Position numbers and translations under genes: made by a program. A stretch of DNA of 64,000 nt from Cinnamomum chago (Eukaryota; Streptophyta; Magnoliopsida; Laurales; Lauraceae): assembly GCA_038049695.1 (NCBI GenBank), contig CP142457.1, positions 20,784,501-20,848,500 of the forward strand, in the 5' to 3' direction. Every line of letters begins with the position of its first letter. The first letter of the stretch is position 1. Shown here one piece after another: positions 8,544 through 60,831 of this stretch. Below the pieces are notes generated by a model. The model saw nothing but the letters and a program-made list of their open reading frames with translations. It ran no database searches and was not told the origin of the DNA.

Positions 8544-9366
8544 ATGGTTGCTGCTAAACAAGGAAAAACCACTTGGTTCACAGACACAAGGGCTACCAAT
8601 AATGCGACACCGGATCTCAACAATCTTTCGAATCATTCCGAATATATAGGTAATGACAATCTTACAGTTGGAAGTGGAAAAGGACTTTCTATCTCTTACA
8701 GTGGTTCCTCTCATTATTTTTCTAATCGTAATAATGGGTCTGTTTGGTACCAGCATTATTAGTAGCATTAATGCTGATTTCAGAATTAATGCTACTAATA
8801 AGCCAAACGGTACCAAAGAAAATCAGCATTAGCATTATACAAAATTAGCATTCTTATAGCATTTTTTCCCAAAATGCTAATGCTGATTTTAGGAGCATTT
8901 TGCTAGCATTTTAAATTTTTTACCCCCCATCTGACCAACTTAACCCTGTATTATTTTGAAAACCCCATAATGCCCCCGTCTAATGCTAATGTTGTTTGGT
9001 TGTCTTATGTCCTTTTATGTAATTTGACACAATTATTTCAACAATATAAATGCTACCAGAATGTCCAGCCAAACAACATTAGCATTTTAAATCAGCATTA
9101 GCATTAGTATTTGAAAATCAGCATTAATGTTGATTTCCAAAATGCTACTACCAAACGGACCCAATGTGTCTTTACATAATGTCCTACGTGTGCCAAATAT
9201 TTATCAGAATCTACTATCAGGTTCCCGGTTTACTAAAGATAATGGTTGCTATTTTGTTTTTACCTTTCCTGGTTTCTATGTGAAGGAAAACAAAATGGGG
9301 AAGATTCTCTTTCGTGGAGTGACCAGTAATGGTCTGTACCCCCTCCATTTGATCTCATGCAACTAG
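8544..9366 (+). pseudogene. Protease region of the copia element, split by a MITE
   Basis: The protease is seen in TWFTDTRATNNATPD, where the catalytic DSG or DTG triad is DTR. The frame continues to GSSHYFSNRNN and then stops inside the MITE at 8736-9162. Beyond it, from 9163, the same frame resumes with VSLHNVLRVPNIYQNLLSGS and KILFRGVTSNGLYPLH, the usual link between protease and GAG-pre-integrase. The frame is kept exactly if the MITE and one target copy are left out. Confidence 0.75.
8736..9162 (+). mobile_element. MITE (Harbinger-like ends), 427 bp
   Basis: The ends are inverted: GGGTCTGTTTGGTA on the left and TACCAAACGGACCC on the right (one mismatch in 14). A 3-bp target duplication AAT flanks it (8733-8735, 9163-9165). 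The host copia frame is continuous without it, which proves the limits. The interior is built from AGCATTA / TAATGCT words in both orientations, and it has no ORF. Ends of the GGGTCTGTTTGG type with 3-bp duplications fit non-autonomous PIF/Harbinger elements, although their target is usually TWA. Confidence 0.85.
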
Positions 9367-49235: not shown

Positions 49236-52200
49236 TTATGCCTCGGATTCATCATTGGAATCAGAATTGATCGAAGCCTCTCTTTCGTCAAATGAGACTG
49301 GCGAAAGTGCAGATTCTTGGACAGTACCCCTAAGATGGAAAAATACGAAAAAATATTATTTGATTAAAGGAGAAATGATAGAACATTAATATAGTTATAA
49401 ACAATGTAACTAACAACAGATTACCTATTTACTAATGCAGGACAGTTGCGCTTATCATGTGAAACGCCACGTTTGTTGCATCCACGGCAAAGTCGGGCAT
49501 TTTTTAATGCCTTTTCTTTCGAGGATTTCAATCTCTTTGCACGTCCTTTTGTGATAGTATGCTTTGGCTCAAGATATTGCTTCAAATCACAAGACTTATC
49601 CCCTTCGATGTTACAAGTCTTATCCCCTTCCTTCTCAGAAGACTTCAACCCTTTCTTATCTACAGTACCTTCTGTTTCATTAATTGCACGAGATGTTCGT
49701 ATAAGGTCCAATAAAACTTGTTTAGCATTTTGGTATGCCTTTGAACACATAGATGACTCATCAACAGCCATTGTGGCATAATACAATAAATCCCCATGCC
49801 TTGCAACTAACGAGTCATCAAATGAGACTGTGCGCTCAAAGAGTCTCATGTAACATTCAGACCCTTTTCTCGCTTGAATACTCCATCTTCTCAAAATATA
49901 TTGTTCTGGCAATATGAATATCCTCTCTTGTTTCAAAATGCAAAGAAGATGGGTGCATGGGATTCCTTCAAACTCGAACATTTGACAAGAACAATTTACA
50001 TGGTTGGTATCTTTCCTGAAGATGGTCCTTTTAACAATTTCCTTTTCCTTTCTAAATGTTGAAACATCATAAATTCTTTCATTTGGTTCATCTCTTACAA
50101 GTTGTATAATGCATGTGGCCATTGCCATGAATTGTACTTGAAATTGGTAAAACTTCTTCCTTGTATATATTTCCGACATTTGTTTCTCCATTGGCCATTC
50201 TGTCTTCAAAATCGGCTTTCCATTAAGAGATTCATGATCAGCTTTTAGCTCTTTCATCCCTAGTCGGGCAATGCCTCCTTCCAACCTTAAGACAAAATCA
50301 TACATACCATTCTTTTGTGTCCTAAGTTGCTTAACGAAAGCATTTATGCTTTCACTTCTTTGAGTCGACCTCATCCCTGCAAAGAACACACCTCTCATAA
50401 ATACTGGTATCCACATCCCACGAATTTCAAATAATTCATTCAGCCACTTATTGTCATTCACTTTAAATTTTCTCAACATCTTCTCCCATCTTGATTCAAA
50501 TTCTTCTTTTGTATCAGAGTTATAAACAATTTTTTTTATTCTTTTCACCAAGCCTTGATTATGGATTGCAAGTCCACCTAATTTAACAGGTAGCTTCCCC
50601 ATAATGTGCCACAAACAGAAACGATGACATGTGTTGGGGAATACAAACCGAATAGCTTTTTTCATTGCGGGATCCTGATCAGTTAAGATCGATTTGGGTG
50701 GATCTCTGGGCATTGCTTCGATCCAATTCTTAAATAGCCACACAAATGTTTCAAATGTTTCATATGATATTAGACCATAACCAAATGTTGTTGTTTGCCC
50801 ATGGTGATTTACTCCTGTGAACACACCAAAAACTAGGTCAAATTTATTTGTCTTATATGTCGTGTCAAATGAAACGACATCCCCAAACTCAGTGTATGAT
50901 GCTCGATGGATATGGTCTGTCCAAAAAACATGTTTAACATGGCCATCTGAATCTGACTCTATTGAAAAAAGAAGTGATCGTCGAGATTCTTTAAGATGCT
51001 TGAAATGTTCATATAATCTCTGACCATCTTTCCCCAACAATTTCTTTCTTTTGCCTCTATCGTAATTTCTGACTTCTTTCTGTGTGAAGCCAACTAAGTC
51101 AGGACGACCACCAGCCTGAACTTCAAAAATATCCATTTGGTTACAAGTCCTTATATTTGCAGCACTAAAGGAATCTATCAAGTTTTTCTTCGGTGCACTA
51201 ACTACACGATGTGATCGTAGCATATGAGCCTTTCGAGGAGAACTTAAAATGTGTGTATGCCCCATAATAAATTTGCATACAAACCATTGCCCATGTGCAT
51301 TTTTTTTCACTTGTAACTCAGCCCCACAATTCTCTCGGGTGTCTGTAACACGTCTCTGTATTGCATAATTAAAGCCTGGCTTCTCTACTCTGCAACCTTC
51401 TTTGGAGCACACAAACTTTTTCCAAATAACTTCATTATTACGTCTTGTATCTGAGCTTTTTCTTACACTAAAGCCAGCAGCTTTAGCATAGGTATTGTAA
51501 AGGTTGTATGCCTCCTCTATGCCATCCACCAACATCTCTACTCTTGGTGTTATATCATCTTCTACATTCGGAATAAATAATCCAGTTGTTGAAGATGCAT
51601 CAAATTCTTTCTAAACAATGTTCCAAAATTCATATAATAAGACACCATGGTATGATAACACATGCCAAAAAGAAAAAAAACACATTAAATGGTGCTGATT
51701 GAGAACAAAAAATTATAAGAAAATATGTGTTACTTAGTCGAGAAGAGGGGAAAACAAAGTTACTTGAGAAGCACTAGAGGTTGGATGCTGTAACCATTCC
51801 GATGAATGCATGACAGGCATTTGTTGTAATTGTTGTGTGGACTGCATATCAGGCATAGGTTGTGAGAAACACATGCTGGGCATTTGAACGGGCTGAGGAA
51901 AGGTATCCAAGACAGTGATGGCAGTCGGTTCCTTTTAAGACATACAAAACAACAATAAAGCAAATTTGAGCATCACATTTATTGTAAATAGTTTACATAG
52001 TAAAAAAAATTCTGCATCGATTTTGCTTACTGAACATCAAATTTACAGTCATTAGTTTACTTATGTAAGAATCACTTGTTGAAAATGGGACATGACTCAC
52101 CCAAATGAAACTCACAATGATTATATGTAAGGAAAATACAAACTACTTGCTATGACATGTCATTATCCAATTCCCTCATTTATATCCACATGCAAAGCCC

Positions 52201-52852: not shown

Positions 52853-54578
52853 TGTTAGGTCTTTTGTTTTTGCAATTTGATGGATGCATTTGCACTTTAG
52901 CATCATTTGGATTCACACACTAGCATTGTTTTAGAAAACCTTGAAATCTAGTTTTATACATGCATAGCTTTTAAGATTTGGAAAAGTCTTTGCTTTATGC
53001 ATGTTTTGGTTTTAAACTTGGATGCATTGGTTTTAGAACCCAAAACTCTTTTGAAAACCTAATTCCTTGTGCATTATACTTGGAAAATCATCTTGTGATT
53101 TTAGGTTTGAACCTTGCATACTTTCAGCACTTTTAGAATCAATTTTGTATGCAATCTCAATTGAAAAGAGTTTTTACTAATCAAGCTTGCCTTTGGTTTT
53201 AAATCTTTGAATCTTTTTAGGCTTTGTGTATTTCATGTTTTTAAACATCTTAGAATGCCTTTAAACATGTTACCAAGCTTGGTTTACCAGCCCAAAAATC
53301 CCCCCAAAGAGTTGCCCTTAAAAGCCTCATGTTTCTCTCATTTATGAAAATCTGGGCTAACTTTCTGCAGGTGTCTCGGTCGACCGAGACCTGCATCTCG
53401 GTCGACCGAGAACACTACAGGGCAAATGGACTGTTTTTTGAACTGAAGCCCCAACGGTCAGAAATCTGACCGTTGTGCCTTCTCGGTCGACCGAGACCTC
53501 TTTGCCGGTCGACCGAGAACTAGCCGTTGGCAACTTTTTGGCTATAAAGTCCATTCATTTCCAACCTTTTTGTAGGCTTGAAACTTGAACTTTTGAGAGC
53601 ATTTTGGAGCCAAAGAAAGGGGATGAAGTTGGAAAGGCTAGAGGGTTATTTGGAAATCAATCTCATGAGTTTTTAAAAGGTACATCTTCTAAGTTATTTT
53701 GATTTCCATTCAAATGAAATTCATGCATGTTCAAATCCTTTGTATTTTCATTTATGCATGATTTCAAGCCCTTAAAGAGTTGTTTTGCAAACTCAATATC
53801 TTTCTTGGTAAATTAGATTAGTTTGCACACACTCTTATCCTAATCACATATGTTCTTAGACTTTAACTTTCACTCAACTTGTTTATCTTAATTCTTCAAA
53901 GTTGTTTGAATCTTTTATGTGATTAGTTTTCTCTTCAATCATCATTTTATAAACCTTGATTTTAAAATGCATCATGCATTCATTTAAAAGCTTCATTGTT
54001 AAAATTGATTGAAGAAACTCATACATACACTTTGTGCACACACTTTAGTTTATTTTAGTGTATGTTTGTAATTGGAATTTCATTTTCCTATTAGCCTATT
54101 TAAGAGGCAAATTCCATTGTGCTTAAATTGTAATCTCTTAGAGTGATCTTTTGTAAAGACACCTTCTTAGAGAAAAGCATATTGTAAGGTTATTGCTAAG
54201 CCTATAAAAGCACATTGAGAGGTTGTTGTTTAGCCTAGAAAAACAACTTTGTAAGGGTTATTGCTTAGCCTAGTAAAAAGCATAATTAGTGGAATCCGGT
54301 GGGGTGTTGGAGACACAAGCCGGTAGTGGATGTAGGCACGTTGGCCGAACCACTATAAATATTGTGTTGTGGTGATTGCTATGTGGTGATTGTTTTGTTT
54401 AGCTTCCGCATATTGTATGGTTTATCATCACATGTGACTAGTTGCTTAGCCTTTGAAAAAGCATACATAGTGGATGTGACTAGTTTAGTTTAAGAAATTA
54501 AAATTGGTCGAAATTGGTCTTACTTGTAGCTCACCCTATTCACCCCCCCTCTAGGGTTAGGATCCTCGTGGACTTTCA
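52853..54578 (+). repeat. 5' LTR of the Sirevirus-like element
   Basis: TGTTAGGTCTTTTG... to ...GTGGACTTTCA. Ends TG/CA. It is the same length as the 3' LTR and almost identical to it. Confidence 0.95.
53374..53548 (+). promoter_or_regulatory. LTR promoter region: palindromes, MSA-like boxes and TATA
   Basis: Three perfect 14-bp palindromes CTCGGTCGACCGAG (53375-53388, 53397-53410, 53482-53495) and a fourth core CGGTCGACCG (53506-53515) stand within 141 bases. Between them AACGGTCAGA and its inverse (53453-53474) form a tight hairpin. CCCAACGGTCA matches the plant MSA consensus YCYAACGGYYA; two near matches lie in inverse at 53464-53474 and 53521-53530. TATAAA follows at 53543-53548. The same set recurs in the 3' LTR at 59627-59801. 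MSA boxes are known MYB3R sites that give G2/M expression; a role here is inference. Confidence 0.7.
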
Positions 54579-54580
54579 AT

Positions 54581-54594
54581 TGGTATCAGAGCCA
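54581..54594 (+). other. Primer-binding site of the Sirevirus-like element
   Basis: TGGTATCAGAGCCA, two bases after the 5' LTR, matches the 3' end of initiator Met tRNA. Confidence 0.92.
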
Positions 54595-54678
54595 AGTGCT
54601 CTATCCCTTAGGATCAAGCGTTTGGAACTCTTGATTAGGTGAAAAAACCTAGAGTTAAAACCCTAGAGTTGTCCTTAT

Positions 54679-56268
54679 ATGAAAATCATTAGAATGGATT
54701 CCACTATGCTAGACTTTGTAGATTCTTCTAGACCCCTCATTCTTCCTTCTATTGGAGATTCAAACATTCAATTAAAAGAATCTCAAATTGAATTAAAAGA
54801 AGAAGAAATTAAAGAAAATGAAGAAGATCTTCAACAAGCCTTTGAGGAATTATATGAATTATCCTTAAAGACTGAAAAGAGAAACAAAAAGTTAAGAGAA
54901 GAATCTAAAAGACTAAACCAAGAATTAGTCTCTTCTAAAGATGAGCTTAGAGAGAAAGAAGAAGTCATAAATTGTTTAGAATCTAAGTTCATGATCTCTT
55001 TAAATAATCTATCTAACATTCAAGATGATCTAAGAGAATTAAAGATGGATTATGATAATGTCAATAATGAAAATTTAAAACTAAGAGATCAAATACAAAG
55101 GCAAGATAAAGACTTTAACAATCTTGAATCTAAATTGACTATCTCTAAGGAAAATTTATCTAATGCTCAAGATAAATTAAATGAGATTAAGATAAATTGT
55201 GATGAGCTTAAAAATGAAAATTTGAACCTAAGAGATACAATTAAAAGACAAGATGAAAACATTAACTATTTAAAATCCAAGTTGACAATTTCCAATGAAA
55301 ATTTGTCTAATGCTCAAAGTAATTTAAAAACTTTAGAACTTGGATCTAATGTTGTTAATGAGCTTAAATCTAAGTTAAAACTTGCCTATGAAGAGCTAAA
55401 CAATTTTAAGGGAATTGAAAATGAACTAACAAAAGTTAAAAATGAAAATTCAACCCTTAAAACCCAAGTCACTCAACTTGAAAGTTATAAACAAAAGTAT
55501 GAGTGCAAGTTTACCCAAAGTGAACATAGACTTGAAAAATTATTTAAATTGGGTAAATCTCATGGAGATAGGACGGGTCTTGGATTTACTAGGAATATGT
55601 TATATGACCCTAAATTCACCAACACTTTTGTGAAAGGTGAGTCCTCATTCTCTAGCACTCTCTCTCAAATGTCCAAAACTAAATGTCATTATTGTGGTAA
55701 AGAAGGACATTTCAAATTTGAGTGCAAACTAAGAAAAAGAAGCCATGTGTCTAAACCCATCTTTGAACTCAAGAATGTAGAATCAAAATCTATGAAGGGT
55801 AAGACACTAAAAACCAAGGAAGACTCCATAAAGCTTAAACAAGGTAAATCATTTAAAATGGAGTCTCCTAAAATAGATTCTAAAAAGCTTAAACAAGTTA
55901 AACCAAGCTTGAAAGAATCTAAGAACAAAAAGCTTCTTAATCTATCTCCCTTATATCAACCTATGAAAGAACTTTTGAATAAAGTTGCTAAGTTAAATTT
56001 AAAATTCAAAAGTCAAGTAAAGGGAGAAAATAAGAAGAAAAGAAAAGTGAAGCAATCCCCTAAGAAACAAACTCACCAACATCAAAAGACTAATCACCAT
56101 TCTAAGCCAAATTTAGTAAAATCTAAATATCATGGTGATAAGTTTAAATTGAAGATTTATCAAGTCAAATCTCCTATAGTTGGTGAGAAATCCAAACTAG
56201 ACCTCAAAGTTCAACCCTCCCAAGACCTTAGGTGGATTCCTAAAGTCATTTACCTAGTCAAACCTTAG
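54679..56268 (+). CDS. Coiled-coil Gag-like protein with zinc knuckle
   Basis: One open frame of 529 residues (a second in-frame Met at residue 6 is an alternative start). Residues about 30-290 form a long coiled coil that includes three 49-residue repeats starting near 101, 150 and 199 (core SKLTISxENLSNAQ). A zinc knuckle CHYCGKEGHFKFEC lies at 336-349 (CX2CX4HX4C). The rest is Lys-rich and ends with RWIPKVIYLVKP, like the WVPK end of Sirevirus Gag. The capsid domain that normally comes first in copia Gag is not recognisable. The protein may bind the element's RNA and join capsids made by an autonomous partner. The frame is intact, consistent with the young LTRs. Confidence 0.8.
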   Translation: MKIIRMDSTMLDFVDSSRPLILPSIGDSNIQLKESQIELKEEEIKENEEDLQQAFEELYELSLKTEKRNKKLREESKRLNQELVSSKDELREKEEVINCLESKFMISLNNLSNIQDDLRELKMDYDNVNNENLKLRDQIQRQDKDFNNLESKLTISKENLSNAQDKLNEIKINCDELKNENLNLRDTIKRQDENINYLKSKLTISNENLSNAQSNLKTLELGSNVVNELKSKLKLAYEELNNFKGIENELTKVKNENSTLKTQVTQLESYKQKYECKFTQSEHRLEKLFKLGKSHGDRTGLGFTRNMLYDPKFTNTFVKGESSFSSTLSQMSKTKCHYCGKEGHFKFECKLRKRSHVSKPIFELKNVESKSMKGKTLKTKEDSIKLKQGKSFKMESPKIDSKKLKQVKPSLKESKNKKLLNLSPLYQPMKELLNKVAKLNLKFKSQVKGENKKKRKVKQSPKKQTHQHQKTNHHSKPNLVKSKYHGDKFKLKIYQVKSPIVGEKSKLDLKVQPSQDLRWIPKVIYLVKP

Positions 56269-56283
56269 GGTCTTGGACCTCAT

Positions 56284-58517
56284 TGACCAACCTATTCTTT
56301 AATAGTTAAATCATTTTGTTGGTCATGTTACATTTGCATTTTGTTTCTTTATAGTCACATCTTTTAAAATGCAATGTTTCTATGTGATCATTTGATTTTG
56401 TCTTCATGAACTTTTAAGTTATATCTCATGGTTTTCAAAATCCTTTGGTTGCATTACTTTCATGATGGATTTGCATTTTGTTCATATAGTTATATCTCTT
56501 GTAGTGCATATCTATTCATGATCAATTGATTGTGATTACAAATGCTTTCATAGCTAGTTTTTCATGATCAATTGATGTTGGAAAATCATTTGATGATTGT
56601 CATAGTTATATCCTTTTTGGAAATCAATTGATTTGAAGCAACTTTAGTTTTCCTTTGATTTACAAGTTATATCTTTTGATATGGAAAATTTGTAAGTGTC
56701 TATTGTTTTTATAATTTGAAAACTTTACAATAGTACACTTCTTGTTTTTCAAAATCACTTGCTCTTAATTCTATAAATGATTCTTTGTTGGAATTTCATA
56801 CATTGAAGTGATTTGAAAAACTTTGGAAAATGTTCTAAGCTTTATTAGTTATATTTCTAGAAGCATTTTCCTTAAATCTATTTCCTTGTGCCTAATTATG
56901 ATTATATCATTTGGAAGGAAATAGTTGTTACAAACAATTTGCATCTTTGCTCATGTAGTTATATTCCTTTTATGCAAATTGATTTTGTTGTCTTACATTG
57001 CATGGTTGGATATGGTTTCATTGATTTGCATGTATGTGCCTTTTTTTTGGTATATAGTTTCATTAATGCAAATTAATGAGTGTTTATGAGCTTTATAGTA
57101 AAATCTTGTATTTGAGCTTTTTAAGTGCATTTGTGATTTAATGTACTAAGTTCATTTGATATAGACCTCATATCCTTTTTCATTGCATTGTAAGCTTAGT
57201 GCATTTGCTAAGAGTGGAGATGTTACATGATAGCTTAATGAATCATTTTAGATGAATTGGAATTAAACCATTGTTCTTAATAGGTATATCCATTTATGTG
57301 GTCCATCTTCATCTTTATGTGATCCATGATGTCTCTCTAACTTCATACCTTCTTGTGCTTACATAGTTATATTCTTTATTGATGATATGGTATGAGTTAG
57401 ATCTTGAGTGTTGATTGATCCTCTCTATGCAAATGTCAAATTGTTCTATGTATGGTTGTGATATTGATTATATTTGTTGAAACCATACTAGAACTAAAAT
57501 CCATCCTCTATGCTTACTAGTCATATCTTTTTGGATGGTTATGATGTTGATTCATGTATTTTCTCTAAGTGATATCATCTTTATACATGTTTCAACTTCA
57601 TAGTAGTGTTCTTAATCATATGAAACTCTTTGAAATCTATTCCTCATATTTCTATATGTTTGATGGATATCTTAGATGTTGAATTCATATGATTTTGACA
57701 CTTTGGAAATTGCATGCATTACCAAGTAATATCCTTTTGCATTGCAATTTACCTTGTTCATCTCTATGCTCATTAGTTATATCCTTAAAAGTGATGAATA
57801 TGCATTTATGATGCTTGATGGAATTTTGTCACATTCTTGCTCTTTATCATGTTATCAAATTCAATTGGATTCTATTGGTATAATGGTTGATTGATTTGAT
57901 TTCTTGTGAATGTGATAAATCATGTGTGCATTGGATTGAACTTGATAAGTAATATGATTGTTCCATGTCACACACCATTAGCATCATAATGTTCATGTTG
58001 CCACCTCTTTTGCTCATATAGGAATATCTCATGACCACCATGTTTATGTGTTCATAATATTGGTTGGTTATTAGTTGAGGTTGGCTTCATGTTTGAATTT
58101 CATTTCACTCATCTTGCACTTTAATAAGTCATATTTATTGATTGAATGAAATGATTTTCAAAATATTACATAGCATTTGATTTTCATAAGTTATATTGAT
58201 TGATGCTATGTTTGAGTAAACCCCATATCATGGATAGCTCTAATTTGGATTTTTCCTAATAAGTAACATTCTTGAATCCATTTTAGAGTGATTATGTTAA
58301 TAGTCATATCCTTTAATCTCAATTGATATGTTTGTTTCAATTGATATCCATGATTGCTTCTCTCATTTGTCCTAGCTCTCTTTTGGTAAATTGATCATAT
58401 TGTGCTCAATAGTTAAATGAATCTAATCCTTTCCTTGAAGTTAACCCTCACTTGGTTAAACCATCTTCTTCTTGCACCTAATAGTTAAATCTTTGTCAAA
58501 AGTTTGACAAAAGAAGA
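56284..58517 (+). other. Array of stem-loops with different stems and a common loop
   Basis: Starting 15 nt after the gag stop, successive inverted repeats of 6-15 bp enclose loops of about 20-45 nt. Most loops contain a motif close to AGTTATATC or AGTCATATC, often preceded by TGCTCA or TGCTTA and followed by CTTT. Examples of arms: 56334-56342/56366-56374, 56878-56887/56915-56924, 56935-56944/56972-56981, 57443-57457/57481-57494, 58168-58176/58203-58211. The stem sequences differ from unit to unit. No protein frame is present. At least 20 units are visible, about 70-100 bases apart. The function is unknown. Confidence 0.7.
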
Positions 58518-58528
58518 GAATGGATTGA

Positions 58529-59105
58529 GGGGGAGTGTAAACCTTCATAGGAAGTATTAGTTGTGATCAAATTGACCATTGGAATGCCTTTGAGCCCTTA
58601 GAGACTACTATCTCACATGATAGCCTGTTATGTATTTCATTTTCGATTTCATTTGTTAACAGGTGCTACTAAAGGTATTTTCCTTGTTTCATGTGTGTAG
58701 GTACCTTTGCAATTTAATGACAAAGGGGGAGAAATTATGCATGTTCTCAAAAGGGTGAAGAGAAAGTCCAAGCTTCCAAAGGGGAGTGTTGTGTATGATC
58801 TTCTACAAGGGGAGAGAATACATACCTTGCCAAAGGAAGAAAGAGGCATGGTCAAAGGGGGAGAGCAAATAGAAGAAAGAAAGCTTGGAGCTATAGAAGA
58901 TGCTTGGCTAAAGAGAGGAAGATGAGAAGAGAAAGCTTGAAGAATGATCAAGCTCCAAGCATCAAGAAGATGGAAGAAAAGAGCCCAAGCTAAGAGAAGG
59001 AGCATCCAAGAAGATTTCAAGACTTGTCCAGCTTAGGGGGAGCTGAAGACTTAGTGTGTAATTTCTATGATGAGTAAGTTGCCATCAAATTGCAAAGGGG
59101 GAGAT
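58529..59105 (+). other. Repeated polypurine tracts before the 3' LTR
   Basis: AAAGGGGGAGA or close forms stand at 58529, 58722, 58854, 59034 and 59094, the last directly before the 3' LTR and therefore the expected plus-strand primer. Several such tracts are typical of Sireviruses. A 72-codon frame across them (58707-58925) follows the same purine repeats and may be the relic of the pol end; I do not call it a gene. Confidence 0.7.
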
Positions 59106-60831
59106 TGTTAGGTCTTTTGTTTTTGCAATTTGATGGATGCATTTGCACTTTAGCATCATTTGGATTCACACACTAGCATTGTTTTAGAAAACCTTGAAAT
59201 CTAGTTTTATACATGCATAGCTTTTAAGATTTGGAAAAGTCTTTGCTTTATGCATGTTTTGGTTTTAAACTTGGATGCATTGGTTTTAGAACCCAAAACT
59301 CTTTTGAAAACCTAATTCCTTGTGCATTATACTTGGAAAATCATCTTGTGATTTTAGGTTTGAACCTTGCATACTTTCAGCACTTTTAGAATCAATTTTG
59401 TATGCAATCTCAATTGAAAAGAGTTTTTACTAATCAAGCTTGCCTTTGGTTTTAAATCTTTGAATTTTTTTAGGCTTTGTGTATTTCATGTTTTTAAACA
59501 TCTTAGAATGCCTTTAAACATGTTACCAAGCTTGGTTTACCAGCCCAAAAATCCCCCCAAAGAGTTGCCCTTAAAAGCCTCATGTTTCTCTCATTTATGA
59601 AAATCTGGGCTAACTTTCTGCAGGTGTCTCGGTCGACCGAGACCTGCATCTCGGTCGACCGAGAACACTACAGGGCAAATGGACTGTTTTTTGAACTGAA
59701 GCCCCAACGGTCAGAAATCTGACCGTTGTGCCTTCTCGGTCGACCGAGACCTCTTTGCCGGTCGACCGAGAACTAGCCGTTGGCAACTTTTTGGCTATAA
59801 AGTCCATTCATTTCCAACCTTTTTGTAGGCTTGAAACTTGAACTTTTGAGAGCATTTTGGAGCCAAAGAAAGGGGATGAAGTTGGAAAGGCTAGAGGGTT
59901 ATTTGGAAATCAATCTCATGAGTTTTTAAAAGGTACATCTTCTAAGTTATTTTGATTTCCATTCAAATGAAATTCATGCATGTTCAAATCCTTTGTATTT
60001 TCATTTATGCATGATTTCAAGCCCTTAAAGAGTTGTTTTGCAAACTCAATATCTTTCTTGGTAAATTAGATTAGTTTGCACACACTCTTATCCTAATCAC
60101 ATATGTTCTTAGACTTTAACTTTCACTCAACTTGTTTATCTTAATTCTTCAAAGTTGTTTGAATCTTTTATGTGATTAGTTTTCTCTTCAATCATCATTT
60201 TATAAACCTTGATTTTAAAATGCATCATGCATTCATTTAAAAGCTTCATTGTTAAAATTGATTGAAGAAACTCATACATACACTTTGTGCACACACTTTA
60301 GTTTATTTTAGTGTATGTTTGTAATTGGAATTTCATTTTCCTATTAGCCTATTTAAGAGGCAAATTCCATTGTGCTTAAATTGTAATCTCTTAGAGTGAT
60401 CTTTTGTAAAGAAACCTTCTTAGAGAAAAGCATATTGTAAGGTTATTGCTAAGCCTATAAAAGCACATTGAGAGGTTGTTGTTTAGCCTAGAAAAACAAC
60501 TTTGTAAGGGTTATTGCTTAGCCTAGTAAAAAGCATAATTAGTGGAATCCGGTGGGGTGTTGGAGACACAAGCCGGTAGTGGATGTAGGCACGTTGGCCG
60601 AACCACTATAAATATTGTGTTGTGGTGATTGCTATGTGGTGATTGTTTTGTTTAGCTTCCGCATATTGTATGGTTTATCATCACATGTGACTAGTTGCTT
60701 AGCCTTTGAAAAAGCATACATAGTGGATGTGACTAGTTTAGTTTAAGAAATTAAAATTGGTCGAAATTGGTCTTACTTGTAGCTCACCCTATTCACCCCC
60801 CCTCTAGGGTTAGGATCCTCGTGGACTTTCA
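59106..60831 (+). repeat. 3' LTR of the Sirevirus-like element
   Basis: Same length and ends as 52853-54578, with two differences seen. It carries the same promoter cluster at 59627-59801. Confidence 0.95.

Follow-up and report, generated by a model that had tools for sequence, protein, structure and literature searches.

To our knowledge, little is known about the route by which the RNA of non-autonomous plant retrotransposons enters the particles of a helper. Among such elements, the TR-GAG type carries gag only and the LARD type carries no genes; in barley, LARDs have a conserved, structured internal domain. More is known about packaging in other systems. In Ty1, according to the available part of the report, the packaging and dimerization domain is one compact, pseudoknotted structure at the 5' end of the RNA, and a Ty1 mini-element supplied with a helper uses it (PMC5454406). 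A quite different arrangement is that of the dispersed packaging signals, in which many stem-loops share a recognition word in the loop while their surroundings vary (PMC6281560, available text); the idea has been set out for RNA viruses and HBV, for example STNV and enterovirus (accessible parts of PMC8677749, PMC7612645, PMC3593212 and PMC7793301). For STNV-1, the accessible part of one paper reports such signals to be without discernible effect in vivo (PMC6475782).

Two groups of LTR elements also bear on the present locus. The available part of the description of Sireviruses, a genus of Ty1/copia elements, reports an inverted repeat across the junction of polypurine tract and 3' LTR in 18 of 21 elements and CGG-CCG palindromic LTR repeats in 13 of 21 (PMC2829016, Bousios et al. 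2010). Retand elements carry tandem repeats between pol and the 3' LTR, as described in the accessible part of PMC11963269.

The locus described here lies in a stretch of 64,000 nucleotides of the Cinnamomum chago genome (contig CP142457.1, positions 20,784,501 to 20,848,500), which we call the window. It holds an LTR element with an array of hairpins that differ in their stems and share a loop word. A preliminary description stated that no element of this design had been described. For LTR elements this agrees with the open-access literature searched, in which no such array was found, but stem-loops with a common loop word, dispersed along an RNA, have already been proposed for RNA viruses and HBV.

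The element is bounded by two TGTAT copies of the target site (TSD), and all of its features read on the + strand. Its 5' LTR (52853..54578) and 3' LTR (59106..60831) are each 1,726 bp long and show two differences between them, so the insertion is recent. Each LTR holds four CGGTCGACCG palindromic boxes, corresponding to the CGG-CCG feature of Sireviruses. Directly 3' of the 5' LTR lies TGGTATCAGAGC (54579..54598), which we take to be the usual initiator-tRNA-Met type of primer binding site of plant LTR elements. A gag-like ORF of 529 aa (54679..56268) is followed by the main hairpin array (56284..58517) and by a tail (58528..59103) with five AGGGGGAG polypurine tracts (58528, 58724, 58856, 59035 and 59096) and no excess of folding (z 0.07). 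The last tract (59096-59103) is followed by AT and then by the LTR from 59106, giving an AT/TG junction with the tract start 10 bp upstream, and an inverted repeat with 15-bp arms and a 25-nt loop (59082..59136) spans this junction. Four further copies of AGGGGGAG occur in the window, all outside the element.

The list of open reading frames contains no sense ORF of at least 100 aa between the gag-like ORF and the 3' LTR, and pol is therefore taken as absent; for the same reason the array cannot be read as coding sequence. The suggestion in the preliminary description that the element borrows its proteins is thus half right, since pol must be borrowed but a gag-like ORF of its own is open. By its tract cluster, junction, inverted repeat and LTR palindromes, the carrier is filed as a young, gag-only LTR retrotransposon of Sirevirus type. 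It differs from Sireviruses in having no pol ORF, and the accessible part of the Sirevirus description mentions no array of hairpins that share a loop word (PMC2829016). The combination of LTRs, a gag-like ORF and no pol ORF is that of TR-GAG elements, and its relatives with LTR, array and tail but no gag resemble LARDs; a loop-word array was found for neither type in the open-access literature searched, as far as the accessible texts go. Outside the element, the window contains a 704-aa ORF with FAR1, MULE and SWIM domains (49421-51535, - strand), either a MULE-type transposase or a FAR1-like gene, and two strong nested inverted repeats with 17- and 18-bp arms (8756-8890), which are GCATTA-rich and unrelated to the array.

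The gag-like protein has a probable coiled coil, a CCHC zinc knuckle and a lysine-rich tail. The Pfam zf-CCHC match falls exactly at the cut-off, and the coiled-coil families match weakly, below it. A Pfam search found no capsid-type domain, which makes it uncertain whether this is a gag in the strict sense. Two homologues in the protein collection are 76% and 63% identical at the protein level. Stop-free versions made up 72 of the best 82 scored among 9,005 gag matches in the same genome, a set that is partly tandem and biased towards intact copies. Viral contigs and prokaryote genome contigs yielded no relatives of this gag. Their matches to the junction pattern AAAGGGGGAGATTGTTRR (L004-L036) were rejected as chance hits because each has one tract copy in the preceding 1.5 kb.

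How real are the hairpins? All 16 arm pairs listed in the preliminary description are present, at the positions and with the pair numbers that it gave. The main array can be read as about 20 stem-loops with loops mostly of 20-39 nt, and the word AGTNANATY lies towards the 3' side of the loop. Typical units are the hairpins at 56935..56981 (10-bp arms, 27-nt loop, AGTTATATT at 56957) and 58168..58211 (9-bp arms, 26-nt loop, AGTTATATT at 58189). The loop motif said to be common to these hairpins is found as a weight-matrix site in 11 of the 16 loops (as strict AGTNANATY in 10) and is missing from the other five. The statement that no two stems share sequence went too far, because several arms have TTTGCAT or ATCAATTGAT in common. 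Nevertheless, the array was rightly distinguished from a satellite: across 56269-58520, Tandem Repeats Finder lists just four short repeats of 1.9-2.0 units, and a tandem repeat was rejected since the whole unit is not conserved head to tail. In this respect the array differs from the Retand repeats, which likewise lie before the 3' LTR but, in the accessible account, consist of conserved tandem units (PMC11963269).

The motif, the hairpins, the fixed place of the word in the loop and its orientation on one strand all go beyond chance. With up to two mismatches, TAGTTATATCCTT occurs 12 times in 56269-58700; it is absent from the reverse strand of the array and, on the given strand, from the first 52 kb. 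Within 55991-58491, AGTNANATY occurs 23 times on the sense strand and 0 times on the opposite one; the rest of the window has 21 occurrences on both strands combined. An iterated weight matrix defined 25 motif sites, and their mean best-stem score is 20.64, compared to 15.23 +/- 0.69 when the 3' arms are re-dealt among sites (0 of 20,000 trials reached it). Five of the 25 sites have best stems scoring 10-14, which does not exceed the mean of 15.0 for re-paired arms. The excess of pairing is maximal for stems whose inner ends are 6-12 nt upstream and 0-7 nt downstream of the motif (z 4.6-9.5) and declines outward. The word thus has a favoured position within a loop that measures about 26 nt.

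Dinucleotide shuffles fall well short of the array in both arms and folding. Perfect arms of at least 8 bp with loops of 10-60 nt number 14 in the array, against 3.5 +/- 1.9 (maximum 8) in 60 shuffles, and 1-7 in each of 13 background segments of array length. The gag region (10 vs 2.25) and the LTR (10 vs 2.1) show a similar excess over their own shuffles. The folding energy of the array has a z of -10.2 for the sense and -8.7 for the antisense strand, with 0 of 100 shuffles as low in either case; values elsewhere are -6.1 and -6.3 for gag, -7.7 for the LTR and -3.0 to +1.1 for 10 background segments.

The array was initially placed after the gag stop, but hairpins bearing the motif already begin within the gag coding sequence, so that the array overlaps the gene and extends beyond its original range. 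Four hairpins at 55821..56139 (55821-55866, 55874-55921, 55971-56013 and 56093-56139) have the loop word, exact or slightly altered. When a matrix is trained on the array alone, the ends of seven gag loops score above random places (p = 2.5e-4), and these four hairpins score highest. The control consisted of 150 synonymous shuffles that keep protein and codon usage. Perfect stems of at least 8 bp number 10 in gag and 2.9 +/- 1.5 in the shuffles (0/150), and those with loops of 22-33 nt number 7 and 0.8 (0/150); for arms of at least 7 the difference is smaller (12 vs 7.2, reached by 2 of 150). Each LTR, too, has six stems, which are 8-9 bp long and close loops of 25-29 nt (52958-54116 and 59211-60369). 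Their loops lack the word (p = 0.18 with the array-trained matrix).

Other copies were sought in the same genome (1.06 Gb, 14 contigs). For each search only the best candidates were scored (40 of 6,785 with the array as probe, 40 of 7,158 with the LTR), and the copies are therefore close relatives among which intact gag is over-represented. We used 18 copies from the array search, 6 of 12 stretches from the LTR search and 12 more from the gag search; mean identity is 92% for gag and 85% and 92% for two array pieces, and tandem copies are not independent. Compared with window positions 55400-58525, none of the 18 array-search copies matches before 56152, which means that no gag gene stands in front of their arrays. 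An LTR end only about 76-77% like that of the window lies 140-255 nt upstream of the array in copy L038 and in five of the six gag-less copies compared with the whole window; the sixth, L059, gave no LTR match. Gag-less copies with a different LTR thus carry the same array.

The limits of what is shared can be followed in L038. Its identity to the window is 0.86-0.99 per 200-nt step over 56300-59099 and 0.88 up to 59299, and it drops to 0.66 before this block and to 0.75-0.56 after it. The block of 56300-59299, which comprises array, tail and the start of the LTR in elements with different LTRs, is probably a module that was moved by recombination, and its sharp edges suggest recombination between RNAs. 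It would be tempting to argue that the array is selected because it is more alike than the LTR, but that argument was rejected: the block is even over about 56.3-59.3 kb and has sharp ends, which point to recombination, and only comparisons within the block were used for selection.

The number of units differs between copies. The six gag-bearing copies from the LTR search match the array at both ends, and window positions 56690-57425 are represented in them by just 165-287 nt, alike to the window in short pieces at most. In three of these copies the counterpart of that interval has 5, 4 and 2 stems of at least 7 bp, of which 2, 1 and 0 carry the loop word. Taken alone, two gag-bearing arrays and one gag-less array have 13, 14 and 14 stems of at least 8 bp (about 3 in shuffles), and 32 of these 41 stems have loops of 22-36 nt, although the three arrays are homologous and not independent.

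Copies often stand in head-to-tail rows at an even step, for example at C6:41.99-42.04 Mb, C5:58.10-58.15 Mb and C12:52.08-52.10 Mb, with a step of about 5.3-5.4 kb for gag-less and about 5.6-6.3 kb for gag-bearing copies. Such an arrangement is suggestive of tandem insertion or of unequal exchange between LTRs. The 60 kb beside two copies contain no further array. ORFs follow the LTR-like stretch in L067 and in L068. Among viral contigs, the motif-pair pattern was matched by L001-L003, none of which has a dense array.

Do the copies keep the hairpins? Comparing the window with the 18 gag-less copies, the fixed letters of the motif (AGT.A.ATC) change at 0.9-6.0% per column and the free columns 4, 6 and 10 at 16-18%. 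Overall rates of change are 7.2% for the whole motif, 4.0% for the arms and 8.5% for the remainder. Over 31 and 35 rows of aligned copies, AGT.A.AT varies at 1.3-6.9%, the free columns at 15-17% and the C/T column at 14.8%. For the stems, we followed 17 of our own choice among those of the window. Fifteen of the 17 have no more than one mismatch in 80% or more of the gap-free rows, and for the hairpin at 58168..58211 this is true of 31 rows of 31. It is true of 14 of 19 rows for the stem at 55821-55866 and of 4 of 19 for that at 55667-55712, which has been lost in most copies. Complete pairing is less common, as at 56567-56632, where 1 of 31 rows has it.

Mismatch states were counted over 19 rows for gag, 31 distinct rows of 37 (4 dropped) for the first array piece and 35 distinct of 37 for the last. 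Single-mismatch states in the stems number 113 where 260 would be expected from non-stem columns (0.43); for chance complementarities at distances of 120-600 nt the corresponding figures are 428 and 510 (0.84). Within gag, third codon positions are variable in 8 of 57 stem columns and 165 of 473 outside (p = 0.0015), first positions in 6 of 53 and 139 of 477, and second positions in 10 of 54 and 106 of 476, in a comparison biased to conserved columns because its stems had to occur in a third or more of the rows. Together with the slow motif columns, the stem mismatches support the earlier proposal of selection on pairing and loop word, and the copies point to selection on both.

The sign of compensatory change is fainter. 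The stems largely keep their pairing, but paired changes are only modestly enriched: there are 12 among 276 near pairs and 15 among 625 far ones (p = 0.09 when counted per pair, p = 0.006 when taken relative to single changes). Earlier sets had given 6 double changes against 0-1 in seven slid controls, and 12 of 260 against 4 of 392. Since adding rows and enlarging the control made the effect smaller, we regard the enrichment as suggestive only.

What, then, is the array for? Many sites, a conserved shape and loop word and free stem letters make it resemble the dispersed packaging signals, and a packaging-type signal with a putative loop-binding partner fits best. The RNA that bears the array also encodes a zinc-knuckle protein, and relatives without gag have retained the array, which makes Gag, packaging and use in trans our first choice and a host protein the second. 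We put at roughly 0.45 the probability that the array is a distributed, cis-acting signal for packaging or RNP assembly, with Gag as its putative reader and gag-less relatives as its users in trans. The genomic transcript would fold into some 20 or more local hairpins that present AGTNANATY in the 3' part of a roughly 26-nt loop, and the element's own Gag-like protein, or that of a helper, would bind many loops simultaneously. The Gag-bound RNA would be taken into particles, with pol supplied by the helper, and gag-less relatives bearing the array would be packed in trans. Co-packaged RNAs would also account for the module common to gag-less and gag-bearing elements. We infer that RNA is the acting form, Gag the reader and packaging the step, and that a helper exists.

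Several observations count against this packaging reading, among them the modest covariation, the weak or absent preference of G-U over A-C and the loss of some stems in most copies. Another is the set of LTR stems with loops of 25-29 nt and no word, and a further one is the outcome reported for STNV-1. The last is the Ty1 precedent, also a structured RNA of an LTR element, where the available text describes one 5' domain and not a long array of like hairpins (PMC5454406). The dispersed signals known so far belong to capsid-forming viruses, in the accessible part of that literature (PMC6281560), while here the carrier is an LTR retrotransposon, the loops are of about 26 nt and binding by a coat protein is only proposed.

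The best-surviving alternative is that the hairpins bind a host protein that acts in nuclear export, stability or translation of the RNA. Array anatomy, strand bias and constraint would be expected equally, and gag-less copies retain the array though they make no protein. However, the zinc-knuckle protein of the same RNA is a nearer candidate reader, and we know of no host reader for AGTNANATY; a host protein is a possible but less likely partner.

It is rather improbable that the stems act in DNA, as cDNA hairpins during reverse transcription or as dyad sites, including the word, for a protein that binds DNA. Such a role would explain why the stems are nearly free of G-U pairs: the window copy has 1 G-U and 2 A-C in 220 pairs, with no G-U excess at stem ends, and in the strictest set, whose stems close loops of 22-33 nt, G-U pairs are depleted to the same degree as other mismatches (2 vs 12.3 expected). 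The significant antisense fold and the similar stems of the LTRs would be expected as well. Across copies, 29 G-U and 25 A-C in near pairs compare with 83 and 109 in far pairs (p = 0.11), and the G-U pairs do not settle the choice between RNA and DNA. The restriction of the loop word to the sense strand argues for single-stranded reading, and the stems overlap the coding part of the transcript; both speak against DNA as the acting form.

The sharp edges and nearly pure Watson-Crick pairing of the arms, and the like-sized loops on stems in gag, array and LTR, could also have a non-functional origin, in which reverse transcriptase switches template within hairpins and so makes or repairs quasi-palindromes, with pairing due to mutation alone. 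Copying repair predicts many double changes, but the 12 that were found stand beside a loss of about 147 single states, and the loop word, its fixed place and its slow change would be left unexplained. This origin is already disfavoured.

Still less probable are small-RNA precursors or silencing decoys, to which local hairpins in a sense transcript might be suited. A hairpin with 16-bp arms at 56744-56821, whose loop lacks the word, gave the sole match in Rfam 15, to MIR395, but its 21.8 bits fall far below the gathering score of 56, and membership in a known RNA family was rejected. The usual small-RNA precursors have longer arms than the 7-15 bp seen here, where the conserved part is the loop word. 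Finally, composition and duplication alone (a region of 70% A+T, a duplicated word, some recurring arm words and chance pairing) are refuted, since none of the controls (dinucleotide shuffles, arms re-dealt among sites, slid pairs and chance stems at a distance) matches the array.

Returning to the packaging signal, a broader and more tentative view may be taken of the lineage. Perhaps it codes only an RNA-binding Gag-like protein, and some two dozen hairpins on the same RNA are the address label that this Gag reads. The label would overlap the gene, be constrained in shape and loop word, differ in unit number between families and have been taken over by gag-less relatives that travel in the same particles, making up a multi-site packaging code. 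As a candidate signal, the array combines a motif with a fixed geometry; its possible reader is encoded on the RNA that carries it, and gag-less elements would be its natural users. If the packaging reading is true, the idea of dispersed packaging signals would extend to LTR retrotransposons, and dependent elements and their helpers could be found by a common loop word instead of by overall likeness.
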